DNA of 64,000 nt, from assembly GCA_022818135.1 (NCBI GenBank), contig JAFMSR010000010.1, forward strand, positions 8,417,557-8,481,556. The letters run 5' to 3'. A program made the translations under genes and the position numbers. The stretch comes from Saxidomus purpurata. Taxonomy: Eukaryota > Mollusca > Bivalvia > Venerida > Veneridae. Below, one piece after another: positions 2,561 through 43,435 of this stretch (positions are counted from its first letter, which is position 1; each line of letters opens with the position of its first letter). Under the pieces are notes generated by a model, which was given only the letters and a program-made list of their open reading frames with translations, was not told where the DNA came from and ran no database searches.

Positions 2561-2591
2561 TTAAATATAGTGAGATAAAACAAAACGTCAC

Positions 2592-2763
2592 CATCAACAT
2601 GTTTGCAAGATTCCAGTTTACTGAAACAGGATGGACCATAGGAACTTCCAGTATTTGCCAAGGCATAGCATACTATTGACAATGTGTATGCATCAGCTAT
2701 GGTTGAAAGTTTGGTCTCCAGATACAGTTTTCCTTTATCTATTGCAGACGCAACTAGGTTTGC
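2592..2763 (-). CDS. TEP exon E30: TED, last exon in the window
   Basis: 57 codons: 'IDKGKLYLETKLSTIADAYT' and 'LSIVCYALANTGSSYG', matching 'A-x-x-Y-L-x-x-x-x-x-x-x-x-D-x-YT-x-A-x-x-x-YAL'. Acceptor TTTTAG is firm. The 3' border (GTGACG, phase 1) is my best choice, since the reading frame stays open another 17 codons. The next exons are expected left of position 1. Confidence 0.85.
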
Positions 2764-16403: not shown

Positions 16404-19400
16404 CTCTCTGTCTCTCTCTCATGATACAACATATTACAATACATATTCAATTTGCATGCTTTAAACGTTTAATTAACTGTAGCCGACCTATTTTGCCTAA
16501 AGTTGTTAAGCACATGGTCGAAGTACAAAACATCAATAAATATATGGCAGATAAACGTGCATCTTAAAAGATCTTACCACGACAGTTATATCAAATTCAT
16601 CTACTTTCATCGGTGTTAAGACTCAGTTTATGTAAGAGACGGAAAAAATATGAAACACACGTACCTGTTGAGGTAAGGTCATGTAGTTAAAAACTGTGAC
16701 CTGAACAAGGATTTCCTCGCCCAGTACAATCGAGGCTGGTAAATCCATGGTCATGAAAAATGGTTTCTTCACAATGATCTGAAACATTGTAAATGTGTTC
16801 AAGCATCGCAATGGATAACGGTACTCATTTAACCTATGATGGTTGTGTGTGGTCTAACAAAATGAATCGGCACTTAATTAGCGATCTACAAAGTTCTTTT
16901 ATAAATATAAGGCTGTCACTAAATTTAGACAAAGCTAGAAAGGCACCAGACAAGCAAATCAATGCAACCGATGTCGATGAATATCAAACTGAAGAGTGTA
17001 GATAAAACAGTGTCTTTATAAACAAAATAATATTGTAAACACCGTTTTGGTCATGTTTTTGTCTAGTTTATTGAATTGTAAATACAGCACGTTTACAGTA
17101 AACAATTAATAAATAGTTTATGATTTAATAATTTTTACTTTACATGGTTTCGTTTCATATGTATCATGCATGAGTATTCTTTAGTTTTCAAGCATATGTA
17201 AATATTACCGTCTGTTTTGCATCTGGTATTCCAAAACCAGTGTCTGGATTGGTAGCAAACAGAGAAGAAACCCACGCGGTAATAGCATCAGGTGCGGTTT
17301 TTGTTACAGTCAGACTTCCAGTGGGTCTGAAACAATAAGTATGAATTTTATGACAAGTTTAGCAAAAGTGAAGTGCAGGCATTATGAAAAGTTTAGCACA
17401 CATTTAATACAGATATCACTACACATTTTAGTTCCAAAAATGCAGGTATTATAACAAGTTTGGATCAAGTTAAGCACAGATATTATGATTTGTTTTAGAA
17501 TTCCTCATAGTCTCTCAAATTTAAAACTTATCAAGACTTTGTGTTTAAGACATACTTTATAAGATTTGGATCTGTCTCTTTTAACGTTTATTTTCATGAC
17601 GTATGCTTTTGAAATAACGTCCTTGTGCCTTTTCGTAACTCAATCCAGTACGTCGTTTGTTGTAGTTCACAAGTGGTTTGGAAGTATGTTTGCTTGTTTC
17701 ATGTAAAACGTATTTGTTTCTTATTTCAAAAATGTATCTATAATACGCACAATAGATCATTAGATCATAGAAAGCTCTTTTTCTCATTTTTTTATATTTT
17801 GTTGTGAAATTCTCTAAAACAGATTAAAATGTGAATTGTCATTGTCTATCTCCAAGTTCAAATTAATTTGTATTCATCTATAACTGTAAGTAGGTGATAT
17901 ATTCAATTTGATATTAAATATAGATAGACAAACGTTAGCAGCATAGTTTGAAACTTAATACTCAATATAGTATTCTTCCCACAGCCAGGTCTCTGGAAAC
18001 CGGTTGCGTAGAATCTCTCTTGCAGATATTCCAACTTAAAAAGAGATACATCAACTGTCTTATTTTTAAATCCAAGTTCGAATACAGCTTGTTACTCTAC
18101 ATACTGACAAAGACAGATGTCAGTGAGTTATACAAGGTTAGAAAAGTGCAGTAACAGAAAACTTTCACGGCTCTGGAAAATACTGGTACAATTTTTAACC
18201 AGAAAGAGGTAACGTTTTTCTTTTTTAAGTTACAGCAATTTTGACCTTAACTGTAGGGATCCAAAATGCAATCCTAGTCTATATCTCTTTATAAGCTACG
18301 TAGATACCAATTTTCATGGCAAAACCTCATACCCAACGCGACATCCGTAATGCAATCCCAAGCTATAGCTCCATATAAGCTACCTACATATCAATTTCAT
18401 GGCAAAGCCTCATTCATTCCGAAACCGTTTTTCTATTTTAATCGTAACGACCTTGACTTCAGGGTCACCAAATACAATCCAAACCTACATCTCTATATTA
18501 GCTACCTACATACAAAGTTTTATGGCAAAACGTAACTCCTAACTTAAGTTATCGACTGTTTGACGCCGCCCGCCCATCGACCCGCCAAAGGACATAACCA
18601 AGATTTCGTTGACATACTACTCTGTGGCTTTTAGGTCATAGATATCTCGGATGACAAAGTACATTTCTGTTGCAGGAAACTATTTTTAAGTATTGATGTA
18701 AATCAAAGTAAAACTTATTTTTTAAGGCCAGTCCCAACACTTATTTTGAATACCCGCAAAATGTCAACCATGGCTTGTTTGCTGTATCTTGAAGAAGACA
18801 CTGAGCCACTGCCATAGGAAATCTAGCGGCTCATTTAGTTTGTCAATATTTCATTATTAGGACAAAAAAGAGTAATTCAAAGATGATATCTAACCGACTT
18901 AAACAATAGCATGCGATCAACAACTTAAAGCCGTTAACATGGAATGACTGAGGGGATAACTTATATCCTTATAGTCTTGCAATGAAATAGGAAACTACGA
19001 ATCTAAAGTTATTGTTTTCAATGTAAGTATATATGATATGTGCTTTCAAGAAAAATGTATTACAAAGGATCCATACACTGGTCTTTATGTCAATACTTAG
19101 TCAGAATAAAGTGAATGGACCAGCTGTATATTGTAATTCATGCAAACGTCTGAATTGTGAGCCATATATCATTATAGAGCTATCTAAGGTAGTAAGTGCC
19201 TCTACTCTGCCTCTTTGAGAGGTCTGGATACACATTCCGGAAAACATAAAGTAATGAAAGCGAATAAATATCGAAGAAAACAGCAATTAGAACGAAAATG
19301 GTGGTTAAAGTTTTCCCTAAAGTCCTCTATCGTCGTTAAGATTTAACTATTTTAGTTGTTCTCATAACAGGAAAATGTTTCAAGTGGCATATAATTTAAC

Positions 19401-22400
19401 CAAAGCTTAAAAGTTATAGCGCCTTCACTCTGCATGTACGTCTTCTAAAGGTCGTCTGTTTATTAAACACTTGTATGTATGAATGAAAAGTAAGTGTATC
19501 GCAACAGTCATTTTTGTGAAATTGTACAAGTTGTTGTATTCTGAATGGAAGGAATAAACATTACTGGGAGCAAGTGGTTTATGACTTGTTAACAACAAAA
19601 CAACGATTGCTGCACATCAAGATGGGACCATGATGCTTTTTCAGCACTTTCAAAGCTAGAAGAATTTAACAATAACTACATGTGTATAAATAGGTCCGTG
19701 ATACAAACAAACGAGTTTTACAGTAAGTGTGTGTGTGTCGAGGCCCGAATCGCATGAGATGCCGTTATGAAGTGGTAGATCGTGGAGGTAGCGGACTTGA
19801 ATCCTGGATTAACGAACCCTGGTTAAATGTACCAAGATGTGATGAAACTCAATGAAATCTAACTAAAATTGCGTCTATAAGCGATATAAATGTCAGAGAA
19901 AAAATACATAGAATGTATGTTAAATGAGATGCAGAGATCCGGGAATATACAGCCATCGGAACTGATGCAAATTCGCATATCAATCGATTGTTAAATAACG
20001 ATTTTGCTATACGTTTCCCATAATTCATACGTCCTTGAAATAAGTTGGATTACATTTGCATTCAAACTGCATACAGCAATAGAAGAAATTAAGGACAAGT
20101 GCCTGCCTTGCCCAAGCTTTTAATTACCGGTATATATTCTTTTGCACTTTCTTGTGTGAGGTATATCTCAAAGAGTTCAATGTCACATTGGTAATTATTA
20201 GTGGTTTTATACCTAATAATGTTTGCATGAGTTGTACATGTACTTTGCCAACTCAGTCGTATGATCAGATAGTATTAGGTGACTTCTATTTATAAAATTA
20301 ATGCTCTCTATAACTATTGGTGTGTAAAGGGAATTATAACATGTTGGACAGTTACAAAGCTAGGATAAAGATGTAGTTTTCCTAGCTACATCTACTTATG
20401 ATTCAAGCAATTGTTATATTTCACAGATCAGGTAAATCCAGGTTTTCCCTTGTCCCAAATCCCTTGTATTGTCCGTCAATATCAGTTATTAATTAATTTG
20501 GTCATTGATACATTTGGTTAAATACCTTTTATCAAAATCTTGTTTACAATTAATAACTGTTACTGTCTTGAAGTAATTCATTAATTATGCTTAGGTAATG
20601 TCTGTCCTAAATTATTGTTGTGCAATGATTTGTTTTGCTTTTAGTTGCTTTTATATGTTTTCATTTGCTTTATGCTTATTCTTGATTTCTTGTATTTGTA
20701 GGACACCTTTTTGTCACATAAGATTCTACAAAGGAAATGATTGTATATGAATAACATAAATGTAGAAACTCGTTGAACTTATTTATTCCCTTGTGACCAC
20801 CCTCAGAGAGATATGTATACTTAAAATATACCAACAGGCACATCTATGAAAATTGTTTAAACTTCATATAGAGCTTATATCGCATTGAGACAAAGTACAT
20901 GGTGTTCGAGTCATAACTACACCTCGATTTATAGTTTAGTTGTCCCCATATTTATTTCTTTGAACAAATAACCTTGTTGATTAAACCCTTTTCGATTAAA
21001 AGGATTTTCTGTCCTAGAAGATATGTATTCGGCATGGTTCTTATCTTAAGCAATATCAAGTATGATCTAATGTTCTAGAAATCAGTACAATTCTATATTT
21101 TCTACAAGTCGTAACAAAATATCTGTAATAATCAAAACTTTATGTAAAGTACACATAAACATTCGTCATCCACCCACCCCAAACGGTTCCAAGATTAAGA
21201 TCATGTCATTAGTTATATGGAATTAAAATATTCACGCATGAGGTCGGTAACAATATGGATATAATCAGTTTTCCTTTGGCGCACTAGGCAGGGGATTGTA
21301 GAGCAATAATCTATATACCTGACAATTATGCATTTTAAAATAAGCATTTTCTGCGCACGAGTATATTTAGTTTGCGTATCTATGGTAATACACGTTTTTG
21401 AGAACGAAAAAATATTACCTGGAGCAGCAGTAGATACCACACCAAGAACTGAAAAAGACACAAGTACATGTACTCTTGCTAATTTGCTGCGTCAAATAGT
21501 AATTGTATGATGTTAAATTTTGTAACTATAAAATATCTACCATGCATATTGCCAAATATATACATCAATTTGGAATTAATATATTTGCGAACGTGACTTC
21601 AGTAAAATGTAATTTATATAGTAAATTGGTATATGAGAATAGTTTGTGTTAGCTTTCATCCAGTGAAACACTCTTCAGCTTCTTTTCAAAACGAATAACA
21701 AGCGCATTGAAAATGGGGTAATAACGTTTTTAATACCAAGAGGGCCATTAGGGCCCTTTCTAACGCAATACCGATGTGACGTCGTTTCTGATTGGTGACG
21801 TCGTTTAAATTTGCGACTATTAAATAACGTATATATAGTCGCAAACTTCAAACGGCGTTTTAATTATCGCATTTAGACACATTGTGCGTTAGAAAAGGGA
21901 TAACTATTTAGTGATTTTGATATTTGCGACCGTATATACGGTTTTAATGGTCGCAAACAGTTTTAACAGCTCCGGCTAACGCCGTCGCCGTTAAAAATAT
22001 TTGCAACCATTAAAAACCGTATATACAGTCGCAAATATCAAAATTACAAAACAGTTATTCCTATAATATCACTAGTCTGAGTAAAATTGCACTTTCTCAT
22101 GTAGACGTCAAAGCTGGAGAACCTATTCCTATGTACGTTAACTTAAAAATGTCTTATATAATCGAGAAAAAATGTGACAGGTAATGTCTCGATATACTTT
22201 CTTGTATGTTTATTCTTTTTAAACCGAAGACGACGTTAATACATAGATACAGTTTGAATAAATGCACATTCACTTTGTTCGAATTGAAATAATTTGCACT
22301 TGAACTGAAAATTTACAAGAGCGGTTCAGTTAGAAAAAGCTGCTTAAAACGAATAGGTAGACAATAAACGATACACACAGATATACTTACACTTGGCAGG

Positions 22401-25400
22401 GGTGTTTCTTGCATAAAGCCATACTAATGGTGTTCATAGAATGTCATTCAATGTTAAAGCTTTTAAAAGTATTATTCTCCAAAGACGCAGGACTCAGAGC
22501 TTAGATATCTAATGCGTGGCTCTGACTGGTAGTATATTAAATTTGTTCAATTCATGCCTCTTGGGTCAAAGTTGGCCATGCAATAGTGTCATATTTTTAA
22601 CATAGAAATATATAGCAAAACCTCTTGTCATAAATCACAAGACCTTGAGCTTAATTAGTTATTTGCTGTAAAGCATTAGGTAGTGGTCCTCTATCTACTT
22701 TGTTGAAAACATACCCCTTGGCTCAAAATTGGTCCTTCCGCAGGGGTAGCTAGTTTTATATAGCCTTGTATAGGAAAATGCTTTAAAACTTTTCTTGTTT
22801 AATACCGTAAAGCTTTGAACTTAGATATCTAAAACGATTGTTCATTTTGTACACCTGGGGTCAAAAAGGCAGCGGTCCAGTGTTCGCTTGTTTAAGATAG
22901 ACTTATATAAAGAAATACTTTAAAAACTTTCGTGTCCATCGCCGTTTAGAACCAAAGCTTAGAAAGTCGGCGTTTAGCATGGCCTAGCGGCCCTATCAAA
23001 ATAATTCAAATTATGCCCAAGGGTCAAAACTGGGCCGGCCCCAGTGATCATTAATAATATGAAGATTAAACTGAAAGATCTTCATGTCCAAAATCTTAAA
23101 GCGTAGACCTAAGCTATTTCATTTGTAGCATCGCCTAGTTGTTTACTACAAGGATTGTTCTAAATATACCGCTGGGGTCAAAAATGACTAGATCCTCGGT
23201 CGGGGGTAATTATTTCACCTAGACTTGTAGAGGATTAATTTTGTGAAAATCTTCTCGCCAATATCAAGAGTTCTATAACTTAGATAATTTGTACGTAGCA
23301 CTGCCTAGGGGTCCTCGCCCACTATTCATGCCATTGGGATCACACTGTTTCCCTACTTTCACTTTCTGTCTTTTTGTTGAAGTAGTGATGAAATATGAGC
23401 CACGTCTTAAGTTTTGCAAGTAGTTTTCAACGCTTACCTGGGATACCCTTTACTAGACCTGTTCATCTGATTTCTTGTTTTAGCAACAAATTAAAACCAT
23501 GTGGTCAATTGTGTTTCAACATTTAAGATCGATGACCCTGACTTCGATCTTTTGACCTTCTTTCTTGTTTGTAAACTTTGAACCAAGTATACAACAGTGT
23601 TGCTGACATTGCATAGTAAGTAGCCAATGACACCAAGGTGAGGAAGATGAGTTATCTAGGGCCAGCATAGCCCTCTTTTCTTTATTTTAGGTATATCGCA
23701 ATATTGTTTATGATTTTCATAAATAATAACAATTACACTGATCGAATCATAAACTTTCAAAGAAGCAAATTTGTCGTATGCTGTTATAGCACATAATTCT
23801 AACATTATCTATTTCAACTTTAACAGCTTTCACCTCTATTATTGTACACATCGTCTGACCAAAACAGGTTCGATAACATCTTGTATTTTTACAGGTTGTG
23901 TAAGCATTAGGATGTTCTGTTACATTCCGAAATTACATCCATGCGTGCAACATATCAGAAATGGATCTGGTATATGTGTGCAGGACTTACTAAGACGTCA
24001 CAAGATAAATTTAAATTGTTCAAGTAGCAGTACTGAACAGCAAGTATGCATGTTTATGTCCCGGAAAGAAGAACCCGGCAAAAATATTTTTCTTCAATTT
24101 TGGCGGTAGTAGTGTTTAGTAGTGTTTAGACAAGTTCAAATATATAATTATATCTATACATATTTTAAAAGTATAAGTTGAATGTAATACAGAGAAACTG
24201 CTAGATTTCAGAGAAGCAGATTGTAATGAAAGTATTTTTTAAACGTATACATATGTGACTAAGTCCTAATTCCTATGCTGTGACGTAAATTTCAGGGAAC
24301 ACATAACCCTACCAAGAATTACAGATGTGCTATTACATACCTGGTGCATACGTTTGACCTAGAATTAAAAGAAATAGATTAGAAGAAATGTTGGAATGCA
24401 AGTTACATTAAGTTACCAAACTGAAGTTCACGATACAATAATATGTAGATCTATTCCGCTTGTTCTGATAAGTAATAATCAATGTAGCACAATTACCTTT
24501 GCGGTCCATGATTAAGAAACAGTGAGGATAGCTCTAAAAACTAAAGGAGAACATTTTTTTCTGAACTTTCATTTGGCTTATATATTTAATTCTTCACTTT
24601 TTGTGCGAAGCTATAAAACTACGGAACACGAAAGCTTCTGTAACATGCAAGCTACCTACACACCGAGTTTCAATGCAATTGGTCACGCCCAACTCAAGTT
24701 ATTGGGTTGAAATCATTTTTCTTCTTTTAGTAACAGTGACCTTGATCTTGACCATAGTGACCCCAGTTTTCTCTTGACACAAGCTACTTACACACCAAGT
24801 TTCAATGCAATTGGTCACTCCTATCTAAGGTTATTCAGCGGAAACCAAACTTTTGACGCACACCCGGCCGCCCGACATACGAAATCGCTATTCTTATAAC
24901 CAGATTTCGTTGAAAACCTGGTTTATAATAAAAAGTTCGTCTTTGGAACATTTGTACATGCTTGTGTAGCTATAAGAAACACCAAATACATGTTTAGCAA
25001 ATAAGTGATTGTGCACGTCCATTCTTAGTATTACGCAAAATATCAATCAGGGCTTGTTCGATTATCTTAGAGAAGACACTGGACCACTAACAATATGTAG
25101 CGGCTCATGCAGTTTTCATACGTTTACATTATTAGAAATAACAAGTAAAGTTAAGATAATATATAACCGTCTAACCATCCTACGTCTGCTGAACGAACCG
25201 AACCTGAACTGTTAGGCGGATAAATTAAGTTTAAATTCAGGTTTCTTCGGTACGAACTTTACATCAATTGACGTTATGGTATTTGTTATTGACACTCGTT
25301 GAAAACGAATTGGTTGCGAAAGTAAGAAATTTAAAATAACGGTGTTTTGTTAGACGATTTACTCAGTTTACACAGGTATGTTAATTGGAGAATTACACGC

Positions 25401-28400
25401 CTTTAAGAAGATACGAAAAACCAGAAACTGCAAATGTCCAAAATGCTTATCATACATGTGGGCCGTTGCCGAGCAAATGAACACAAAGGGGCTGTGTAAA
25501 CAATTACTTCTCATGACAAAAACGAACGCCTGCTCGAACAGGACCGTTATCCCGTTTATGGTTTAATCAGAAATGGAGAAATATAATTATCATGATATAT
25601 GAATCTGTACTTATGCTTAATCATACAAGGCTCAAATGGGATCAACTTAGTATGATTTTCATCGCTGTTGTGTGCTTTGTGTGTGATAATATGTGCTATT
25701 ACTTGTATCCACTTTCACCACTAAGGATTAAAATAAATAACCATTCAGCTTGTCATATACAATTCAACACTAAAATAAGGAAGTCCATTCTATAAAATTT
25801 ACGCCGTGAAGCGCATACTTGTTACAATACAAACAAGTATGAAAAATAGCTTTCACTGGTTGTGATTACTATCCCCGCTTATGCACTGGTCACTATGGCA
25901 CTAAAGTACTCTGTGATACTGTAAAATAATGTAGTACTGTAAAGTACTGCATTTATTAAGTTTTGTTTCTATATTTAATAACAGCGGCCCATGTGTGCAA
26001 TGGATCGGAAACATTTCCGGCTTTTGAAAGGGGACAATGCATGGGTGCTAGAGAACAAGTTTGGTGACATTCCATCCATTGGTTCATGAGAAGAAGCCAT
26101 TTCAAAATGGAAACATTAGTCAGTTAGTTGAAGTTCTACAAATCAGTACAAGAATACCGTTGATGCAAAGCATCAAGTGGCGCCGAAAATAGTTTTGTGC
26201 ATGTGTGGCGTTAAATAGCTAAAATTAGGTTTTTGATAAGCAATCATTATTAGTTTGATTTGAACTCCACTCGTAAAATTAGGCGGTCATTAGCTTACCC
26301 ACTACACTACGGAGACTGACTTTAAAGCACGTGGTAAAAAATAAGCTGATATTATAATTTTGCAAAACCGATAAGGGAGAAGTTGTTTTCGTATTTTTTC
26401 TAAAAGATATGAAAATGAACATTACAATTAAACAATTACGTTTTAATGAAGGAAATGTGTATAATCAATATTTTAATGTCTATTTCGTATTATTTTAGCA
26501 TACAGTTAAAACCATTTTTCTTCGCATTCTAATAACCGCTCCTAGCATGTACTTCCGGAAAAACTATTCCATAATAGGCCGCCGCCGTCATCAGCGGCGC
26601 CAACAATACTAAATTTTCAACAAGCCTTTACAAAATATATCTGTAATAATCAAATTTTTATGTCAGGTTCATGTAAACGCTAGTCATCCAATGGTCTATA
26701 AGATAAAATCATGTCATTATTTTGCGATTTTAATATTAACAGATGAGGTCAGCTGAATTTGAAAGGATATGGTCAGTTATCCTTTGGCGCACGAACTAGG
26801 GCATTAAATGGCAATAATCTAGATACTTATATAATTATAATTATGCATTTTATAATATTTTTTTCCGCGCTCGAGTATTCTTAGTTTGCAAATCTATGAT
26901 ATTAGTTTTTGAGAAAGACAATTTTTTACCTGGAGCAGGAGTCGGTACCATACCAGGAACTGAAAAGACATCAGTACATGTACACTTATTAATGTGCTGC
27001 GTCACAAAGTTAGATGTCAAGTTTTACAATGTTGAACTACTAAATACCTATACATATTAGCAAATATAAACTTAGTGTTTGAATTAATGCGAAACGTGAT
27101 TTCAGTAAATACATGAGAAATATTTGTGTTAACGTCTCACCAAGAAAATAAGTCTTCATCTTCGTTTCAAAGCGAATTACAAAGCGAAACGTGATTTCAG
27201 TAAATACATGAGAAATATTTGTGTTAACGTCTCACCAAGAAAATAAGTCTTCATCTTCGTTTCAAAGCGAATTACAAAGTTTTAAACAAAGAGGGACATT
27301 ATCACCATTAGTGCCCTATATCACTCACCTGACTATAATTGCACTTTCTGATGTAGAAGTAAAGTCTATGCATGATCACTTGGAACTGTCTAACATAATC
27401 GAGTTTAAATGTGACAGCTATAACCCTAAGAGACTTTCCTGCATGTTTATACACCGACTATTTATTTTTATTATACAATACTGAAGAAGACGTTAATACA
27501 CGTAAACAGTTCACAAAGCTGCATATTCACTATGTGGAATTGAAAGATTTGAATTTAAATTAATCAATAATCAAATTCAGTGAATTTATATACCCCGCCA
27601 AATGAAGCTAATAGCTGAAAAAGAAATTTGGAAAGTGTATTAGTCTGCCTGTGTCAGTGAAAAACCCATTTTAAAATTTCACCATTCTAAAAGGGGCCTC
27701 ATCTCAAAAGTGATTTTGTTTATCTTCAAGTTACAGTCATAAAATACGTATTTGTTGTAAGTTTAATCAAATCAGTACTGCTCATTTCAGACAACAAGCA
27801 TTGTTAAGTTCCTATATAGAATAGTTATGTAAGAAAAGTACTACATCCCCTTACATCCTCATTTCTGTGAGAAACCAGTTTCTGAATTTTCCATTGTTAG
27901 AGAATACAAAGTTGATTATTTGTGCAAAAAAAGAGAAAATGACAAGTCTTTTCAGAAAAAGAAGCATTTTTAAAATATCACCATCTCATTGGGGCATCAT
28001 CTCTGATTTGTTTTTGCATCTTGCATTGATACAGAACACAGTTGTTGTAAGTTGAATTAAATCAGTACTATAAGTTTCACAAAACCAAAATTTATATGTT
28101 TCTAAATAGAATATTTAAGAAAAGTGCTACATCCCTTTAAGGGGTCTCATTTCTAAATAAATCAGGACGTGTAGAGGATGGATATTAGAAAGAGTGATCA
28201 CTTAATTATTTTGAGCCAGATACTATATAATTTTGATAACTGGTTTCAGATGAATTGAACTTTAATTTTTTATATTGAATGTAGAAGAAAATAACATTTA
28301 AAGGGCAATTACTCTCGAGACACTAATCCAATCTTGACGAAAGTTGTGTGTGCTCCGCAACATCAGCTATTGTACACGTAAAGTACGTTTCGTGAAATTC

Positions 28401-31400
28401 TATCTATTGGTTCTTAAGTTATGGCCCTGGACGGACGGACGGACAGACTGACGGACATCGCCGAAACAATATCCCTCCGCCTTCTGCGGAGGACAAAAAA
28501 CAGTTTGAACGAATATGTATAGTTGGTCAATAACATGAAAAGGATAAATGTACATATAAATATGCCTGCCCAACATAGAAGAAACATATAAGATATATGA
28601 CATATACCCGGGAGAAAGCACTTTGCCGATATTAATGAAACTTGGCAGGGATGTTGAAAAGAAGCCAGTTTCAAAGAATTACATACAAAGCAGAAAACTT
28701 CTTTTAAAAAAAATTCTCCAAAACCGGAATGCACAGAGCTTAGATATGTGGTGTATGGCACTGGCTAGTAGACCTCTATCAAATTTGTTTAACTCCTGTT
28801 TCAAAGGTAAAAAATGGCCACGCAAGGGTCATATGTTTAACATAAAATAAAGACGTAGAGCTTAGATATTGGGTGGGGCTCCTGTATCAAGTTTGTTCAA
28901 GGCATGTCCCTTGGATCAATTTTGCTCTCTCCTTGGGGTCACTTATTTTATAGGAAAACTCTTTTAACTCTTATTGATTAATGCCATAAGACGTTTAGTA
29001 TGTACCATCATCTAGTAGTTATCTATACGAAGTGTTCATTTTGTAACCATGGGGTAAAAAAAGTCACGGCTCAGTGTTCACTCGTTTTAGACTTATAAAA
29101 AGAAAATTAAAAATGTTTATTGTCGACACGCCTTAGAAAGTTGGTGTATGCATTGCTAAATGTAGATTTAAACTAAAAAGATATTCATGTCCAAAAACTT
29201 AATGTACAAAAATGTATATACCTTAGTTAGATATTTAATTTGTAGCATCGCCTAGTTGTTTTCTACAAAGATTGGTTCCGCCATTTCGATCTACTTTCTT
29301 GTTGTTGAAGCAGTGATGAAATTTTGACCGTGTGCTAAGCTTTGCAAATAGTTTTTAACGCTTACCAGGGATGTTGTTGACTTATTATTTGTTTCGTAGT
29401 TACACCAACAAATTAGAACCAGGTGCTTAGTTTTATTTCATTATTTCACCTCACTGACTGTGATCTTTTGATCACTTTCTTGTTTGTTAATCTAAATTCA
29501 TGAAATATGGACCATGTGTGCAATTTTGTAAGTGTTTCAATGTTTTGTTGTGCACCTTTTTCATTGATGACCTTGAGTTTTATGTATTTTGCTTTCATTC
29601 AATCAACATAGACTTTGTATAGACATTGAAAATAACCCTGTTGTTGACCTTGTATAACGGCTAACAGTGAGCGATGATGTATTTATGTTAAGGTATATCG
29701 CGATATTGTATGATGTTCATAAATAATAACAATTAAACTGATTAAACCATAACGTTTCAAAGACGCAAGTTTGAATAGCGAGTGTTCGTATGCTGTAATA
29801 GAACATAATTCTAACATCTCGATAATTATACTTGACAAAGATTAAAAACACAAAAACGTTAATAAATTTAGTTTAAATAGATGCGCATTTCCCTTGTTCG
29901 AATTCAACTATTTTTGCAGTTGAAATCTAAATTAACAAGAGCGGTTCAGTTAGCAAAGCCTGTATCAACGAATAGGGAGTAACTTGATCAATAGATATAC
30001 TTACCATATGTAGGATAATGTGCTGTAAAATAAATGCCACATGTATGATATAAACATGCAGAATTGTTATCAAAATCAAAGAATTAAGCAAATGTAATTC
30101 TTTCAGATTAGGAAACATTTCTACAACCTAACCCGGCCCTTGTTATCTTTACCCTTACCCTGCTTGCGATAATGTATTGCGCAATCGTCCTTGCAACCAG
30201 TGCAGATCATGATCATTCTGTCCATAGGGTGAAGTCTGATTATGATAATGCACCGTTTAGTCAGTAACTTTTCATTGAACACCCACTTTAGCACGTAGCA
30301 GTACTGTCGAAATGGAAAATTGAACAAGTCCATATGAGAAATTTACATGTAGCCGGGTAAGAGTTAAATAGTTCATCACACACGCAATACATTTCAAATG
30401 TATTCAAAGTATTCATCGTCTGACCAAAGCAGGTTCGATAACATCTTGTATTTCACAGGTTGTGTTGGCATTAATGACGCTCTGTTACATTCTGGAATTA
30501 CAGTCATGAGTTTAATGAAACAGAAATGGACCTGATAAGTTTGCAGGAAATTACTAACTAATTTACATTGAAAATGAATTGTAAAAAGTATTAGTCCTGG
30601 ACAGCAAGTATGCATGTTTATGTCCCGGAAAGACGAACCAAGCAACAATACATTTCTTCGTTTCCGACGGCAGTAATGTTTAGACAAGTTGACATATAAA
30701 ATTATATCTAAATATTTATTCAGTATAACTTAAATTAGAAGAATCTTCGAGACATTTAAGGGTAATACATACAAACTGCCTCAGAGAAGCAGATTTTAAT
30801 GAACGTAATGTTCTTGAAACGTATACCGGTTCCAGATATGCGACTTATTACTGATTTCTATTTTGTGATGTAAATCTCAGGGAAGACATAACCATACACA
30901 GAGTTGCAGATGTGCTCTTACATACCTGGTGCATACGTTGAACCTAGAATTAAAAGAAATGAATTAGAGGACATGTTGGCATGTAAATTACAGGAAGTTA
31001 CCAAAATAAATGTCACAATACTCAATCTCCCATACGATTTTATGTAAATCTATTCCGCATGTTCTGATTAGTAATTATCAATGTACCACAATTACCGATG
31101 CGGTCCATGATTTAGAAACAGTGAAATGCACTTAAAACGATATGAAACTATCTTTTGTAAACATTGATTTGGCTTGTATTTAATTCTACACTTTTAAAAT
31201 AAAATAAACAAATTGACAAAATAATGAAAGGCTACATTATCGTCTTTGGAACATTCGTACACGCATGTGTAGCTCAAAAGGTTACAGACCTTTTCAAAAC
31301 CAACATTACCAAACACCGAATATTGATTTAGCAATTAAGTGATTGTGCACGACCACTCTTAGCATTACGCAAAATGTGAAACATGTCGTAGAGAAGACTC

Positions 31401-31907
31401 TGAGCCATAAAAAAATTTATCGGCTCATGCAGTTTGTAAGTTTTCATTATTAGAAACAACGAGTAAATTGAAAGATAATATCTAACCATTTTAAGCAATA
31501 GCACGTGATCAGCGAACTGAAGTCAGGTGCATAGTATGACTGAGGGGATAAAATAAATAATTATTGTCTAGTAAAGAAACTAAAGATTGTTTTTTCACGA
31601 AAAAACGTATGTCTCCCCTCTATGACCTTGACCTTTTAGTAAGTGACCCCAAATTATAATATGCACAACTAGACTACATACTGATGCTTCCTGCGAAGTT
31701 TTATGAAAATCAAGCAAGGGGTTTTGGAGGAGTACGGAATATTATTTTTTGTTTTCAGGCCCCTGTGACCTTGACCTTTAAGTTAGTGGCCCTAAATTAT
31801 AATATGCGCAAATAGACTTCATACTGATGCTTCCTGCAAAATGTTACGAAAATCCAGTGAGGGGTATTGGAGAAGCAGCACGGAAAATATTTCACTGAAT
31901 ATTATAT

Positions 31908-31968
<61 letters not shown>

Positions 31969-33435
31969 AAATCTTCGAAGTCCTATAACTCATACAAAAA
32001 TCAATGGAGCAGAAAATCCTGACGTTATGCACATTCACTACACTTGGTACTAAACATTTCTACCAAGTTTTAGTAAAATCCATCCAGGCGTGTAAGAGGA
32101 GTTGCGTAGACAAACTTTTGTGACAGACGGACGGACGGACGGACGGACGGACAGACAGACGGGCAGCACCAAATCAGTATGTCTCCCCCCACTGAGGGGA
32201 GACATAAAAAGAAGCTACTAATCTAAGATTTTATTTCCAATGTGTTTGGTTAGACGATTTATTCAGTTAACACACGTATGGTAATTGGAGAACTACATGC
32301 TTGTCAGAAGATATGAAGAACCAGAAACTGAGAAAATAGACACAAAATGGCTGTGTAAAGATATGACAACCAAATCTTGGTAATAATTTCTAATGACTAA
32401 AATGAACGCCTGCTCGAACACAACCATTATCTTGTTATGAACTCTAGAAATAATGGAGAAACATTATAATGATATACGAACCTGTACTCATGCTTATTCA
32501 TACAGAACCCACATGGGTTTTCAAATTTGGATGATTTTAATCACTGTTTTGTGCTATGTGTGATAATATTTGCTATTATTTGTATGCACTTTTACCACAA
32601 AGGATTTAAGTGTGGAAAAGTCTTTTCTGTATCATTAACGTCGTGAAACGCATACTTGATGCAATACAAACAAGCAAATTCAGTGCATTTATATCCCCCG
32701 CCAAACGAAACAAATAACTGAAAAAGAACAACACGAACGTGTATTGGTCTGTCTGTTTCAGAAAACAAAGGAATTTTTAAAATTTCTCTACCCCACTTGG
32801 GCTTCATTTCCGAGGGGATATTTTTTTTCTTCAAGTTACAGTCACGCAGAACTTACTTGTTGTAAGTTAAATTAAATCAGTACTACTAGTTTCAGACAAC
32901 AAGAGTTCTTACGTTTCTATATAGAATAGTAATGTAAGAAAAGCACTACATCCCCATTTCTGTAAAAATCCAGTTTCTAAATTTTCTGTTGTTATACAAA
33001 ATCGATTAATTGTGCCTAACAAAATCAAATTCTGACAGGCCTTTTCAGAAAAAAGAAGCATTAAAATAATTTCACCAACCCATTGGGGCCTTATTTATGA
33101 GGGGTATTATTTTCTTCCGATCTACAGAATAATTAAGAAAAGTGCTACACCCTTTGAGGGCATCATTTCTAAAACAATCCAAGGGCAGAGTGTGGATATT
33201 AGAAAGAGTAATTATTACATTATTTGAACCAATTACAAATTAATTTTGATAACCGGTTGCAGAAAAAAAGAATTTTAATGTTTTTATATCGAAAAAATAG
33301 CAAAAATACCAATTAAAGGCAATAACTGCAGATACTAAGCTTATCTTGACAAAATTTGCGCGTGCGCCGCGGCATTATTCCATTGTATATTTATTTTAAG
33401 TTTCATAAATTTCTATTCATTGGTTCCTTAGTTGT

Positions 33436-33482
<47 letters not shown>

Positions 33483-36400
33483 GGAAAACGCCAAAACAAT
33501 ATCCCTCTTGCAAGGGATAACAAGTATAAAGACAAGCTATCACTGGAAGTATGCGCTGGTCAACATGGCACTTAAGTCATGTATGATACTTTAAAATACT
33601 GTGGTACTGTAAAGTATTGTATGTACTGAAGGAGCCATTTAAGGGTAATTCTAATTTTATTAACAGCGCCCTCTATGAGCAATGGACCTAATGTATTTCC
33701 ACTTTTTGAAAGGGAACAATTCAATGATGCTACAGAGCAAATATGGTGACATTCCATCATTAGTTCCCGAGAAGAACAGCAGCCCCTGGGTGCACTGGAT
33801 CGGAACGATTTCCTGTTATTTAAAAGGGACAATCTAAGGATGCTACAGAAGTTTGGTGATATTCCGTCCATTAGCTTATGAAAAGAAGCCGTTGAAAGGT
33901 TTTTCTATTTCTAGTAACAGGTGTCCCTGTTTGCAACAGATCTGAACCATTTCCTGATGTTTTAAGGGGGTTAATGCAAGGACGCTACAGAGCAAGTGTG
34001 GTAAAAATCTGAGATGCAGTTTGTGAGTAATACTTGACTAAATGTACGACTGGACGGGTCAACGTGCGTGATTCCTATTTTGTCTCCGCGTTACTACGTA
34101 AAGCGGGTGTATCAAAACGTACAATAAATTCATAAAATACCTGGCGCTGGTGTTGGAATTATATCTGAAAATATAAGTAAAGAAAATTGAAAGTTCAATT
34201 TAGTAAAAATTCTTCGGGAACAGAATAATAAAGACCGTGATAGAAAAAGACTACAGAGAAGTTGCAATTACCAAGTTCTTATATAGTTCTAATATTTCGA
34301 CAGGAAAATGTTTCAAGCAATAGATCATTTAACCAAAACGTAAAGGTTATAGAACTCTCACTCTGCAGGAATGTCTTTTAAAATTCGGCTATCTCTATTA
34401 GAAACATGTATTTAAGAATGAATAATACAAAATAATATTTCCACGAGAACTACTGAAGCTGCCGCATTGATAGAAAGTACAGGGTGTTAGAGCCATAACT
34501 ATACTTCGATTATAGTTTAGTTATCCACATCTGTTTTTTTTTCTGTGACCAAATAATTTTGATGCATAAACCCTTTACAGTATTTGTGCTGTCTTGGTGG
34601 GAAGAATATATCCATCGTGATGACTTAGGCAATATAAAGTGTTATCTTGTTCTTCATTTTTGTTTTCGCATTCAAAATAAAAACCGATTTACTTACTTGG
34701 AGCGTATGTGATACCTGAAAAAGAATTATAAGTCAGTGAATTAATTTTTACAAATCATTACATGACTATCTTTTCGACAAATCTTCACAAAATATCTGTT
34801 ATAATCAGAACTTCATGTCAGTTACATGCTGAATTTGAAAGGTAACTATATGGATGTAATCAGTTTTCCTTTGACAGACAAATAGTAGCAATAATCTAGA
34901 AACATTATGATTATTACTTAGTATGCACTTTATGTGAATCATTTTTTTTGCGCTTAAGTATTCTAAATTTGCAAACTAGTTTTTGAGAAAGAAAATTATT
35001 ATAATGGCATATTTCTGCATAACATAACCAAGACAATATAAAAAATTATCTTGAAAATAAGAAGACTTATCATGAAAAATTTGTTTTCGCTAAAAGTTTT
35101 TTTGCTAGTTTCCGCTACATAATAATTTAATCCAAAGGGGAAAAATCATGATAGTGCCCAATACTGCTACGATAATAAATGAACGACTGAGCTATAATTA
35201 CGTAGCTATCAATAGAACATTATAATTGGAATTTATCCCTATTTATATGCGAAAATAAAAAAGTTCATCTTAAAATTCGTATGGAAAACCATACATTTAA
35301 GTCTAATTCTAAGTCCTTATCATTTTTTACATTAAATATAAAATTCCCTTTTTTCACATTACTATTTTAACCAATGATATTTCAGGATAAAATCATGTGA
35401 TACCTGATTAGCAACCAATAAGCATACATTTCTGTTTTCTGCTTTACTGTCTAGGAAACCCATATTTTTCAAATTAAGCCGGTTACGAAGTACTTGCTAC
35501 CAGATTGGCTTTTCAGCACCTTTCATTGTTATATAACTTTCATGCAAACTTAGTTATTACCTATGTTTTCAAATATTAATATCTGTTTAAATAGCAAAGT
35601 CACAAATGCCACTGAATTAAGAATGCCAAAGAAGATTACGTTTTTAAAAAAAAAGAAATCTGCGATTGGCTTTTAACTGATTAATTTCTATCACCCATGA
35701 GAAGTTGAAAATCAGATTGAGTAATTGAAACTGGTGGAATACAAATCATATATAATTCAAATGGGTTAAATCAACGGGATTGTTAGTTTGGTGTGTGACA
35801 AGGGCCGAATAACATTAGATGGCGTAATGAAGTAGTAGATCGTTGAGGTAGCAAACTTGAATCCTGGTCAAATTTCTTTCAGTTACAAGAAAATTTCAAA
35901 CGAGGACGGGGTCAAACTTGCGTATTAATCGATTGTTAAATGTTGATTAACTACCTTGCCTATTTAAACGTCCTTTTTATTGCGTTTTCCTGCACTTTTT
36001 ACGGAAACAATGTACATTAAAACCACATAAAACAATTGCGGAAATTTACGGTAAGATCACAAACCTGCCTGCCCTGTCTCATTTTTTAACTATTTTTTTC
36101 TATTGCTCTTTCTTGTTTGAGGTATATTTCAAAAGGTTCAATGAGAACTATTGAAGCTGCTGTCAGAGTAAGATCGCATTGATAAAGTACAGGGTGTTAG
36201 AGCCATAACTATACTTCGATTTTGGTTTAGTTATCCACTTATGTTTTTCCTGTGATGACTTTGATGCATAAACCCTTTACTATTACAGTATTTTTGCTGT
36301 CTTGGTAGGAAGACTATACCCAGCGTGATGATTTAAGCAATATAAATCTGCTATCTTGTTCTTCATTTATGTTTTCGCATTCAATATAAAATTTGATTTA

Positions 36401-39400
36401 CTTACCTGGAGCGTACATGGGACCTGAAAAAGAAATATCAGTCAGTGAATTAAAGTTCTAAAGCTTCACTGCGAGCACGGAGGTAAACACATGAAATTCA
36501 ATGTCATAGTTGAAATTGGTGCCGCAAAAACAACAACAGTGCAACTTGTTTACAACACTGCACTCGTTTCATGATAATATTTCATGATTTTGTGTCAATA
36601 ACAAGAATCATAAAGGTTAAATACAGAAGTGTACACGTAGTTCAATTTTGGTTACCGGGGCTTCAAACAGCAGAAAGTAGTTTAAAAGATAAAGGGCATC
36701 CTAAACCAGGAAATCTGTTTCCAAATCTTAACATATAAGAAAGTAGGTCAAAAGGGCGGGGCCAAATTTAACCCAAGGAGTTTAACTAAAATAGTCATAA
36801 GACAATGGTACATACCAAATATCTAAGCTCCCGACCTTGCAATTATGGAAGACTTGTTAAAATGTCCGTTATAAGACCGTGTAAAATAATTAACAACGGG
36901 CTGGTGTCAGTGTTGACCCTTGGTACATAATTTGAACAGTATTGGTAATTAGATATCAATTATCTTAGCTCTATGCGTAATGATTTCGTACAAGAAGATT
37001 TTTAAGTTATTTCGTTACGTCTTATATAAGTCTGCATAAAATAACTGACCAATAGGGCGGTGACAATTTTACACCAGCGCTATATATCAAACAGTTTTGG
37101 TAGAGGACCATCAGGCAATGCTACGCACAAACTACTGGTATCTAGGCTCTAAGCTTTAGTTTTGCACAAGAAGATGTTTTTTAAAAGACATTTTCTTAGG
37201 GCGGATCCCATTTTGACCCAAGTGGTTGGGGGCTGTAATCTGATCAATATTGATAGTGGATCATAATTTATATAAAGCAAGGTTACATACCAAATATAAT
37301 AATCTTGAGACCTTATGACTTTCAACAAGTAGATTTCTTTAAGTAATCAGTACATACGTTTATACAAAATGGTACTATATCGCTCACCTGAGTATCATTG
37401 CACCCTAAAATAAAAAAGCAGGTCAGATGGACATCATCAAGGTCAGTCAAAGGAATCTCTAGCTTGAAAACAACAACCAGGCCAAATGTCGAGGTCAGAA
37501 CTGAAATCTGCAAATCTGCTTCATAATTGAAATCTGCTTTATAAATGTTTAATCAACGGTAGATGATTAACATTATATTGAAGTCAGTCCATATATAAGT
37601 AAGACCTAATGAATCTAATAACGATTTTACATGGAATGCCCAGCACTTGTTATTATTACTTTTACACTGATCAATGAAAGCTCTTTGAATCGCTGAACAG
37701 TGTTTTTCATTATCTTAAACCAGTATTTTAAAGCTCTTACTTTACAAATTACAGATAAAGGGTATTTACCTACTTCACCCAAAACTGCGAAAGTTGATGT
37801 ATGTTGGCGCACACCTTGTATATTTTTACAAAACTTTATCTATTTCTTTAAAATCATATATTCCTCAGACTTCTGCTCCATATAATATAGTAGGAGCTAC
37901 AACACAAACTAGGTATAACCAAATGTAAATTTGTTGCATCACATGTATCAAAATGGACTTGGTACAACTTGAAATAAGAACAATCAATATCAATATGAAG
38001 CGATAATTTATTAATGATTTTAACACGATCTATATCATGTCCCGATGTAACAAAGAGGGATCTGGGGTGTATTTAGATTGCATAATTTCCTCTAGAGAAT
38101 GCAGTTCTTCCTCCGTGTACTCGGGTTCAAAATTATACGGTACAAGTCCGTGATCATCCATTATAAAATAAGTGTTTTACTTGCAAATGCTGCACAAATA
38201 CTGTTGACGTAAATTTAAATTAATCTTCGCATTTTGTCTCATTTGTTTATAAGTAACGGGTGAAAATTGCGCTGCAATTATCGGTCCCTAATAGAATCTA
38301 ATTATGTAGGATCGAAAGGAATTTGTCTTGAAAACTGTGAAAGGCAACAATGGTAAAGAAGCTCGTTATAGATAATAAAAGATATAGATAAAAATAAAGA
38401 TTGTTGTTGTTGTTTGATAATAAAAGAGTTTTTTTAATTATGGATCAAAGGAAAATGTCACATATATACTATTAGCAATTAAAAGAAAAAGGTAGCGCTC
38501 GCTTGCCGCCGATACTGATAAGTTTAGTGTGACGTCCCATATAATGGGTCACGTGACTCAATAAAGCAAATATGGCGAGTTACATTGAGCGAGCGACCGG
38601 CTAAAAATTGACGTTTTAAATCAAGTATAGCAAAATTAATATCGCATTAATTTTGATTGCAAGAAAGCGATTCTGTATAAAATTGTACGGACTACAACAT
38701 GGGAATAAATTTTGTTTTGACTTTCGGTTCCCTTTAAGCACCTTTCAATGTTATATGCAAACTAAGTTATTACCTATGTTTTCAAATTTGTTACTTAATA
38801 TCTGTTTAAATAGCAAAGTCACAAATGTCACTGAATTGAGAATGCCAAAGTAGATTACATTTACAAAACAAAGAAATCTGTGAATGGCTTTTAACTGATC
38901 AATTTCTATTTCCCATGAGAAGTTGAAATTTTAATAATTAAAAATATACCCAGTATTGAAAAATGACCAGAAATATTATGTGCAAAATAGAATTAATAAA
39001 ATAGGAAAAAATACTCAAAAATGTGCAGCAAAACACATATGTTCCATTTCTTCAATCTCTGTATGTTTTCATATTTTGAAAAGGATCTCTTTTGTTTTAA
39101 TATACAGTGTTTTGTTGGTTGAGAGTGTAAGGGAGTTATACGAATAATAAAGAAGGGACGAATAAATACCTCTTGAGCAACTTGGACAAGCATGTGAAAA
39201 ACATATTAACTATGAAAAACATAAACATCACAATGGTTTAAAAATAAGTGTATTTATACATCTTGCTAACTAAATAAGTTGAAAGTATCTCACTTACCCA
39301 TTCTACAAAGCACGAAGTAAATCATAATTTATCGTTATTGCTATTCACTACGTGCAAAAGTTACACGTATTAAATTGATTACCAATTGAAACTTGAAATA

Positions 39401-42400
39401 TTGTAATCCATCGAACAAATTGTTTGAGAAATTTATTTGAGACTTGTTGCACATACAAAATAAATAATGCCATTTTTTTAAAAGAAAAAAAACTTGTATA
39501 TAAACATACATGTATAGTCTTAAATTTATGGAAACGACAACTTGGAGTCTTTCTGATTTCATCGGAAATTGGTGGCTTAAAACAGCCGATTGCTTACTTT
39601 AGCGCTGCTGATGTTGCGCTAATTCAAGTACGCGCTAATAAGTTGAAACCACCCAAATCATGGCGTTTTCGCTAAAATTTAGCTACACTAAGAGTACTGT
39701 AACGTCGTACGCGGAGATGCATCATGTGTTTTGACAACCATGTATTTTAGAGAAATCAACATTTCTTGAAACTTTTAAGTTGAAAGTCTACAAATATCAC
39801 ACATGTGGACTTATTTCAAAATTTGACCAATGGTTTTTAAGTTTTTAATATTGCCATAAAAGGGAAACTACGGTATTTCAGACCTCTTGCAGACGAGCTT
39901 TTGACGAAAACACGGTGTCTCTCTATGAATATTTCATATTGTGGATACTTTTTGAAATACAAGTTAGATTTTGTTGGTTCGTTTTTCGTAATAATAGGTC
40001 TAATAAAACAGAAAAAAACCTAGCAGTCACATATTGACCCGAGAGGAAAACATTTCACACATTGAAGTGGCCTACTAGACAATCTGCACATCGAGTCTTG
40101 CGGTAAAGGACATTTCCAAAGTCTTTTATATATGGCATTATAAATAGATTTATTAATCTAGCATTGTGATCCAGAATGCTGATCTTGCCCAAGTAGTGTG
40201 TCAGATCATACGAGTATGATCCCACCGCTCCCATAGTCAATCCGGTATCTCGGTCACATTTTTATGCTAATTGCACTTTTATTATATACATTTGGATACT
40301 TGTATACATTTACATCTGCTTTCAAATGACATAGAAGCGTGTAACAGAAGGAAAAAATACCTAATAAGCATGATGTAGGCTTTATAAGTGACGTCACTGA
40401 GGTCATTGGGTTGGCGTATTTGCATAAACAAGACGTAGAGGTCCAATCATAAGCGACGTAATGAATGGATAGGACATGCAATAACTTTCTATGGACCAAC
40501 GGTAAACTGCCTTACACAAATAAATACTGATTAACATTATACATGTACTGGAGCCGTGCTGAACGGATCTATCGTCGATTGTTGCGTAAAATACATATCA
40601 ATGCTAGGTATATGATAAAACAAATGCATACACAGATGATGCCAATTCGACCCCATGGACGTTATATGATTTCATAGTACATTTTGTATATAAGTATTAC
40701 TAAGAAGGCTACTGTAAATTGCTTTGAATTCGCTAGGTCCTTTTATGCGATTTTCCCGTTTTTTAAATATTTTTCGCGAGGTTTTAAATTCGCGGCAGAA
40801 TGCCTTGATAATCTGCAAAAGTTGTAAAAGACCGACATGTTTTGTCTGGTTATGCTCGAGGCCGCCGATTTGCTATTTCTTTTATGGCTAAAACGAAGTT
40901 TAGACAATGCAACACACCAAAGCTCTTGGACTTTGGTTTGCGTCAAGAGTGCACGGAATGGAATACTTTGAAACACTTAACTAGAGGGTCATCCAAACAA
41001 AAGCCTTGCCACGACTTACATAATTACGTTTTACATGAGATGTCGTTTTTCGAAAATGATGGGCGGAATGATGGATGAATGGACGTGCAACGACCGTTGG
41101 GCAGTAGACGATGATCGGTCACAATGGCTCAGTCTGATCATATTTGCTGGTAAATTAAAGATATCTTTTTGTTTCCAGAGTTATCTTGATGTTTTGTTAT
41201 CAATACGCGAACAGTCAGACATTTTCACGAACGAGAAGTACAATTATGATTCTTGTTATTGTTATTAAATTATCGTAAGTATGTGCATAGTTTATGTTAA
41301 CACAGCGACAATAGGTGGATCACCAATGATATATTTTATTTTCTATTGGTAACATATTGAAAATACAATTATATTGAACTATCCAAAATAAAAGGAACTG
41401 TTTCCATTACAGAACAAGTGGTTGCAAAATTTGAACAATGCATTCAAGATTACTTACCAGTAGCAGGTGTAGTTGTAGTTGTCGTTGTTATATGGATACC
41501 TAAACAGAAATTAACAAAGATTAAAAGATCAAAATATGATGCTTTACATCAAAGCTGGATTAACACCCAACAGATATGATCGAACTCGAAATAACATGTT
41601 GTCTTGCATTGATTCAAGGTCGTTTATCATAAACACGAACATATACTTTTTCTGTGTAAATCCTGCAATATTTCAGGAATGAAAAACATTTATTCAGATA
41701 ACTTTTTTCTGTATATCACAGTGTGGATATCTGTAATACTTGAGTCGTGACGCTACATGGATTTGTCATGAAACCAACCGTCATTCATAATTGACATAAT
41801 TTACGGTTCTTTGTTGAACATGGAGATCAACTGCGATAATACGTTCTCATTGTTTGAATCTGTTGTCAAGTCTTGACCTTCCGAGCACATGGAAGTATAG
41901 CTTTACACACTCAATAAGAGCAGTACATTCACATCATGAAATTCTCTGTCACTAATTTAAACAAATACAATTTATGATGCGGGACGTTCTCTGGCAAGAT
42001 ACTAAAATTATTATATACGCAGTTTATTAAGTCAGGCAAATATTTTGTTCTTCTTATTATGAATAATAAATGACCTTGGAGGATCAATTCGGACGATGTT
42101 AAAAGTTCTCGCTGTTTATATCCATAGCTCATGGCCTATCATAACATTTAGGTGAACAGATTGAATGAATATATCGATATGGAATATATCGGGCGCCGCT
42201 TTGCTAATTATCATTTATTTTAGTTTTGATATAAAGAAGTTGTTTTTCATACATAAAAACATGTCGCCATATCAAAAGACCTTCTTCTGAAATACAAAAG
42301 ATCAAATGCCTGGAATCAAAAATTCGTTCTTCAAACCAATTCTTGAAAATTGAATTCTATTGAAATCCATTTTATATTAATGCGTCCGTGTTCGAGTGGT

Positions 42401-43435
42401 TAGAGTCACTGACTTGAAATCTTTGTAACCTCTCATTGATTTAGGGTCACGGGGCCGAGCCCGGCTATCGACCATGTCTCTTTATGTGAGACAGTTGGCA
42501 GTTTCGTACGTAGTATATGAGTATAGTACTTGTTCTTCCCAGGAAGGATAGTTACGTAAACTATTCACCTGTAAACAGGACCAAAGTAGGTTGTAACAGG
42601 CGTTAAACAACAACTGCGTCATGTATGATAAGATATTCTAGCATGCATTTGTAAGTTCATACAACGATTATAAGTTAAATCTTACATTTCTGAGAAAAGG
42701 TTGTATCAAACATTAGCAAATTGCTAAAGTCTGTCTTCGCAAACATAATCAAGTCAGACAAAACCACAACGCCTTTATTCTGAAAAAATATATATTAATT
42801 TAGTTTTTCGTATGATATCGGTAAGACAAATGGAAACAATCCAATATGATCCCAATCCGGCAATAAGCTGTTATAATACTTATGTTTATATTAATGATAC
42901 TATTCATTTCAAGATCTTTTGCATCAAATTATGTTATTGTTCTCACCTTTTCCTGGTGATACCGTTTCAACATGGACCGATCGGTTCTTAATATTGTTCG
43001 GATTGCATTCTGAAAGGGAAGCAGGTATTGTTTGAAGACCGTATATTTCTATGCATTTCATTCTGCGCATTTTAATGAACCTTCGTCTAATAGATGTGAT
43101 TTTACTGAATTCATTATGTGCATCATGAAACAGTTTTCTAGAGAGTCTGATCCTTTAATCATCATCTACGCTATGAAGAGAAATCATTAAGACATCTTCC
43201 ATAGAAATACTATGCAGCTACATGAATGGTTGAATTTTACAGCCGCTAATTAGATATAAACGTATGTCCTCGAGATATAATTATAAATTTCTAATAGTAA
43301 TATACTGATTGCAGATATATCAAAAAACGTATCAGTTTATCAGATGAGAAAATACAGCGACCGAATGCCCGGATATTCGTTCGGAAGGCTGACCGAATGT
43401 CCACATACCAGTTTGGGTATTCGTTGACATCCCTA

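Follow-up and report, generated by a model that had tools for sequence, protein, structure and literature searches.

The window analysed here is a 64-kb stretch of the genome of the bivalve Saxidomus purpurata (contig JAFMSR010000010.1, positions 8,417,557 to 8,481,556; all positions below follow the window's own numbering, and features lie on the minus strand unless stated otherwise). It carries a gene of the TEP/CD109/A2M family, encoding a complement-like thioester protein, in which a series of very small exons interrupts the bait/linker region; the family assignment, this position and the in-frame cassette architecture of the series are all supported. TEP-like exon pieces span the stretch between roughly 57 and 2.7 kb, the outermost being recognised by eye only. 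The final TED-like piece was placed by eye near the 2.7-kb end, and the gene seems to continue beyond the low-coordinate end of the window. A partial product of 867 residues, read from about 55.4 to 12.5 kb and used as the domain query, matches the Pfam families A2M (1e-19), A2M_BRD (3.8e-13), MG3 (1.8e-8) and TED_complement (6.8e-13) above their cut-offs, and MG2 below its cut-off. The closest solved structure to this product is CD109 (149 bits), followed by A2ML1 and A2M and then by thioester-containing protein I. The TED domain contains the thioester motif PNGCGEQTM (GCGEQ), encoded by an exon at 12529..12705 that is assigned to the same TEP gene from its sequence and the solved-structure alignment. 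Query residues 480-647 are unaligned in both CD109 alignments shown; this segment corresponds to most of a group of basic exons, an exon at 42.7 kb, the array of small exons and the start of an exon encoding FPETW.

The array is bounded by two constant exons. The last constant exon before it, at 42686..42779 (NKGVVVLSDLIMFAKTDFSNLLMFDTTFSQK), was read from the sequence, falls outside the solved-structure alignments and ends in phase 1; judged by eye, it is probably an MG6 strand. On the other side lies the FPETW exon at 17962..18034 (xGISAREILRNRFPETWLWEEYYIE, phase 1 to 2), with an acceptor score of -1.9 and a donor, GTATTA at 17962, that scores -8.2, last among 15 constant donors and far under the other 14. 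A choice among several FPETW exons was considered and rejected, as there is only a single FPETW-like match on the minus strand. The next constant exon, at 17209..17326 (PTGSLTVTKTAPDAITAW...), is placed by its sequence and by the solved-structure alignment. Directly upstream of the array, three consecutive K/R-rich exons of phase 0-0 were read from the sequence at 44255-44196, 43907-43845 and 43009-42947 (60, 63 and 63 nucleotides; NVRRSNIRRQ, GSYRSLWKRNYQKR and RSMLKRYHQEK). They hold several dibasic pairs and could also be skipped in frame, and the last two resemble duplicates by eye.

The interval between the exons at 42779-42686 and 18034-17962 measures 24.65 kb and holds a Thr-rich exon of 42 nucleotides and eight microexons, all with AG acceptors and GT donors at the kilobase places reported in a first-pass annotation of this DNA. 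The Thr-rich cassette (IHITTTTTTTPAT) is at 41458..41499, and in genomic order it is followed by microexons of 18, 18, 24, 18, 18, 30, 18 and 30 nucleotides, 216 nucleotides in total with the Thr-rich exon. They lie at 36406..36423 (GPMYAP), 34697..34714 (GITYAP), 34141..34164 ((D/N)IIPTPAP, with a weak donor of 1.5), 30926..30943 (GSTYAP), 30005..30022 ((A)HYPTY), 26930..26959 ((V)PGMVPTPAP), 24341..24358 (GQTYAP) and 21419..21448 ((V)LGVVSTAAP). All nine exons were located in the splice-site scan, and those at 36.4, 34.7, 30.9, 26.9, 24.3 and 21.4 kb also by self-comparison. Read as whole codons only, the peptides are IHITTTTTTTPAT, PMYAP, ITYAP, IIPTPAP, STYAP, HYPTY, PGMVPTPAP, QTYAP and LGVVSTAAP, and the three microexon classes named by the first-pass annotation (xTYAP, HYPTY and PTPAP-like) are correct. 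A doubtful ninth microexon, for which that annotation gives no position, is not supported: the best extra in-frame candidate, 24917-24864 (54 nucleotides), has an unrelated peptide, and the weaker ones are unlike the set.

The introns across the array range from 532 to 5034 nucleotides. All nine exons are of phase 1-1 with lengths that are multiples of three, and this phase agrees with both constant neighbours. The earlier claim that any subset stays in frame holds throughout, as 512 of 512 ordered subsets are open and free of stops, giving 512 distinct proteins with 0 to 72 added residues. Because the exons are symmetric, copies can be added, skipped or lost without a break in the frame. Depending on the exon joined, the first junction encodes Cys, Tyr, Ser or Phe, and later junctions give Gly, Asp, Ala or Val, or, after the 34.7-kb exon with its last base A, Ser, Asn, Thr or Ile. 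The junction residues listed before (Gly, Val, Ala, Asp, Asn and Ser) are all found, and that list was incomplete in respect of Thr, Ile and the four residues of the first junction.

Splice sites in the 24.65-kb interval were scored with a general matrix of consensus frequencies. In a first scan, whose cut-offs were fixed before the scores were known, though after the exons had been read by eye, six in-frame candidates were obtained on the sense strand, all six among the exons listed earlier, with one on the antisense strand and none in six further scans, which covered both strands of three window stretches totalling 17.6 kb. A second scan with a lower cut-off, picked to admit the whole earlier list, gave 10 in-frame candidates, nine of them listed exons, versus one on the antisense strand and a mean of 2.0 (maximum 7) in 200 dinucleotide shuffles. 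Eight candidates scored at least 4.8 and had peptides composed largely of P, T, A, Y, G, S and V, versus a shuffle mean of 0.2 and a maximum of 3. The peptide motif at the donor is stronger evidence than the splice scores: on the minus strand of the whole 64 kb there are six codon runs for T-[Y/P/A]-A-P (four of them being two duplicate pairs), all six flush with a donor-like GT. The plus strand has one such run, not before a donor, and 200 shuffles gave a mean of 0.39 and a maximum of 2, none before a donor.

Self-comparison revealed three duplicated microexon-bearing stretches, 36.4/34.7 kb (84%), 30.9/24.3 kb (74%) and 26.9/21.4 kb (70%), and further collinear matches hint at the copying of multi-kilobase blocks. 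There are also related stretches without the exon, at 35.0 kb for a PTPAP site, at 22.4 kb for a HYPTY site and at about 21.0 kb and, less surely, about 26.6 kb for TYAP sites. The place at 35004..35033 aligns with the 26.9- and 21.4-kb exons in a related block, with neither exon nor acceptor recognisable; at 22391..22408, the aligned counterpart of the HYPTY exon, the sequence on the donor side survives (GTAAGTATATC) and the exon and acceptor are again not recognisable. Such exon-less copies may be losses or may mark later gains and, together with the duplicate pairs, they show exon turnover as judged by self-comparison. Six older within-class comparisons, which are not independent of one another, have 26 of 39 differences at third codon positions (3/5, 3/5, 4/6, 4/6, 6/7 and 6/10), and their synonymous/nonsynonymous codon counts are 2/2, 2/2, 3/1, 3/1, 4/2 and 2/4; the third-position excess in these older paralogues suggests that the exons are coding. 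When exon and splice sites are compared with their own block, the 30.9/24.3-kb pair stands out (2.8% of windows reach its level). The pattern of conservation would fit exons that retain a C-terminal motif and vary freely in their first part, though the numbers are small. The array further contains a tandem duplication at 27089-27279 (95 bases, 100% matches), which is probably recent, and a hairpin at 22062-21896, where about 167 bases match their reverse complement with 83% identity.

Counted over whole codons, the eight microexons encode 50 residues, including 14 P, 8 A, 7 T and 6 Y; K, R, D and E are absent. The junction residue, which stands outside this count, can be Asp. Basic residues are located instead in the constant FPETW exon (SAREILRNR) and in the three K/R-rich upstream exons. 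It had been suggested that the array tunes bait length, rigidity or protease choice; length and rigidity are the better fit to this composition, and protease choice is weakened by it. Protease choice is less likely than spacing because the microexon peptides give trypsin-like proteases few sites, although proteases that cut at Tyr, Ala or Pro could still act on them. With all exons included in genomic order, every one of the seven microexon Thr residues has Pro at +3, two of them also having Pro at -1 and +1, and one of 200,000 residue shuffles equals this result; without the copies at 34.7, 24.3 and 21.4 kb the count is four of four, which 766 of 200,000 shuffles reach. For the HYPTY Thr, the +3 Pro in that order is encoded by the following exon (26.9 kb) and not by its own. 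In a Muc2 peptide, a snail GalNAc-transferase first glycosylated the Thr that has Pro at -1, +1 and +3, and it favoured Thr over Ser in vitro (PMC4245494). P-T-P-A-P in the microexons has Pro at the same three positions as the preferred Muc2 Thr (PMC4245494), and the predicted stalk is probably O-GalNAc-glycosylated.

We propose, with a probability of roughly 0.6, that the nine small exons are real coding exons that together encode an extendable, probably O-glycosylated bait stalk rich in Pro, Thr, Ala and Tyr, which controls protease access. The anatomy, reading frame, coding signal and duplications are seen in the sequence itself; inclusion of the exons in the mRNA, glycosylation of the stalk and its effect on triggering are what we infer from them. 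The stalk would sit at the family's bait position, after a segment ending in FSQK and before the FPETW strand. Each microexon would contribute 6-10 residues, and seven of the eight would also supply a single Thr that, in genomic order, has Pro at +3 and so favours mucin-type O-GalNAc addition; inclusion of all nine exons would add 72 residues. Such a stalk would set both the stand-off from the body of the protein and the shielding of the segment that can be cleaved (the basic upstream exons together with ISAREILRNR, which precedes FPETW), and stand-off and shielding would in turn govern how easily a protease fires the thioester. The array would have expanded through block duplication, with exons both gained and lost. 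A more specific version, in which each microexon is a one-glycan spacer and the choice among nine cassettes (at most 512 forms) sets bait length and glycan shield, tuning the thioester threshold while the cassette set itself turns over, we consider unlikely.

Several observations weigh against the exons themselves or against the stalk proposal. Without the frame filter the scan yields 24 candidates, some of them nested in listed exons, which split by length modulo three into 13, 7 and 4 (8, 2 and 2 at a score of at least 6.4); 11 are not multiples of three, and three out-of-frame candidates score at least 9.4 (37404-37388, 27347-27329 and 30217-30159). Splice scores by themselves cannot tell real from false exons, and the motif, the cut-off of 4.5 and the Pro+3 test were all chosen after the exons had been seen. 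The three recent pairs have 0 synonymous and 7 nonsynonymous codon changes, with no purifying selection visible, and the 36.4/34.7-kb exon is less conserved than its block (72% versus 86% identical). Exon and splice sites do not clearly stand out from their block for either the 26.9/21.4-kb pair (15%) or the 36.4/34.7-kb pair (60%), and the likeness of the older exons may come from shared origin or from a convergent peptide. As for glycosylation, the 36.4-kb microexon is the only one without a Thr, the snail enzyme works better with Gly or Arg at +2 than with Ala (PMC4245494), and large aromatic neighbours abolish transfer according to work cited in the same paper, which tells against the T-Y-A-P sites. 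That the whole array is a set of chance splice-like sites in a long, repeat-rich intron could draw on the 11 of 24 unfiltered candidates and on the duplicated blocks that fill the region, but it is very improbable in view of the motif-at-donor statistics, the third-position differences and the phase match to both constant neighbours; we rejected it on the motif, frame and codon evidence, splice scores alone being insufficient. The observation is confirmed, and the nine small exons, which we take to be coding exons of one TEP gene, are very probably functional.

Duplicated symmetric exons encoding extended, often Pro-rich segments are familiar from elastin, the immunoglobulin hinge and titin PEVK, with larger exons and in other families, and exons 4-8 of the fast skeletal troponin T gene TNNT3 are small. 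TNNT3 exons 4-8 resemble the array in being an exon run that diversifies, through different combinations, a single segment of a conserved protein; unlike it, they belong to an intracellular muscle protein, encode an unrelated peptide and have established alternative splicing (PMC2447309). Schistosome micro-exon genes (MEGs) have mostly very small symmetrical exons and share with the array a host-interface protein and the permission of in-frame skipping (PMC4350168). In MEGs, which are apparently restricted to platyhelminths, microexons make up most of the coding region (PMC4350168), whereas here they amount, with the Thr-rich exon, to no more than 72 residues of a large conserved protein that has many ordinary exons; in VAL-6, part of the gene has a MEG-like structure (PMC4350168). 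Within the family, BgTEP2 of Biomphalaria glabrata has 12 mutually exclusive bait exons over 30 kb, and the same paper refers to a scallop TEP with six mutually exclusive exons and to five isoforms of Drosophila TEP2 (PMC7016707). The array shares with BgTEP2 and with CfTEP of Chlamys farreri the TEP family, the same variable region and several candidate exons at the bait position (PMC7016707). One of the 12 (or six) exons is chosen in those genes, in BgTEP2 with a conserved C-terminal part (PMC7016707), whereas the exons here are phase 1-1 cassettes of 18-30 nucleotides that can be joined to each other. For A2M of a fish, twelve splice isoforms are listed (PMC6650032). Searches of the open-licence PMC literature on TEP/A2M bait splicing and on microexons brought up, in titles and abstract openings, no such array in the bait of a TEP or A2M protein. 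The novelty claimed in the first-pass annotation is half right: bait splicing in molluscan TEPs is known, and cassettes of 18-30 nucleotides do not appear in the covered parts of PMC7016707. By analogy, the array may be seen as combining the bait position of BgTEP2-type arrays with the architecture of MEGs, known molluscan TEP bait splicing using mutually exclusive exons.

Cassette splice sites score at least as high as the constant exons that were scored alongside them, with acceptor scores of 3.7 versus 1.9 (n=9 and 16; P 0.12) and donor scores of 5.0 versus 2.25 (n=9 and 15; P 0.06). This fits constitutive inclusion of all nine exons equally well, and it does not decide the matter because very short exons need strong sites anyway. 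The proposed stalk could be spliced in any of three ways. A fixed 72-residue stalk that happens to be divided among tiny exons, which would also supply the HYPTY Thr with the exon it needs for its +3 Pro, is somewhat less likely than not in our estimate; against it, the related blocks with and without an exon indicate that the number of exons has not been fixed over evolution. The anatomy makes combinatorial splicing possible, and regulated use of microexon subsets by cell type or infection, yielding many bait-stalk lengths from one gene, can be entertained tentatively. All 512 ordered subsets give stop-free, in-frame and different proteins, and the exons are flanked by introns of 0.5-5 kb, a setting in which very short exons are often skipped. 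Other invertebrate TEPs splice the bait alternatively, BgTEP2 with band patterns that differ by tissue (PMC7016707). Set against regulated subsets are splice sites that are not weak and the fact that duplication of a symmetric exon also predicts symmetry. Mutually exclusive choice within classes, in the manner of BgTEP2 and the scallop TEP and with one microexon per class in each transcript, would suit the same place in the gene, the comparable span (24.65 kb versus 30 kb in BgTEP2; PMC7016707) and the row of paralogous exons. It is nevertheless quite unlikely: the reading frame imposes no exclusivity, the exons are tiny and of several classes, and a crude search for docking/selector RNA pairing was negative, the best of 36 tests reaching only the 6% tail of 120 control windows.

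Some further features of the window were noted. Between the FPETW exon and the next exon there is an 80-codon basic open frame at 17823-17584 with an acceptor-like start, whose end is overlapped by an AATAAA at 17592 and whose phase fits a cassette exon and not the FPETW exon. It is possibly an alternative last exon or chance; as an alternative last exon it was rejected, having no Pfam match and a length that is ordinary for its base composition by our own estimate. Two of the out-of-frame candidates, 37404-37388 and 27347-27329 (17 and 19 nucleotides), have strong splice-like sites, both with CAGGTGAGYGATATAG, and may mark the terminus of a dispersed repeat. At 60765-61309, upstream of the first recognised TEP exon, there is a long tandem repeat of the GCAGTAGCAGTA type. 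A tRNA-Ala (TGC), predicted by Rfam and ARAGORN, lies at 8989-9062 on the plus strand, within the TEP gene span and opposite to it, and a tRNA was all that Rfam found at gathering thresholds in the whole window.

The bait determines when a thioester protein fires. If the length and glycan cover of the proposed stalk can be set exon by exon, one gene could provide graded triggers while the rest of the protein stays constant. Exons of 18 nucleotides tend to escape standard annotation, so such arrays may be under-reported. If the proposal is true, the microexon-array design described in schistosome secreted proteins would extend to a host-defence protein.

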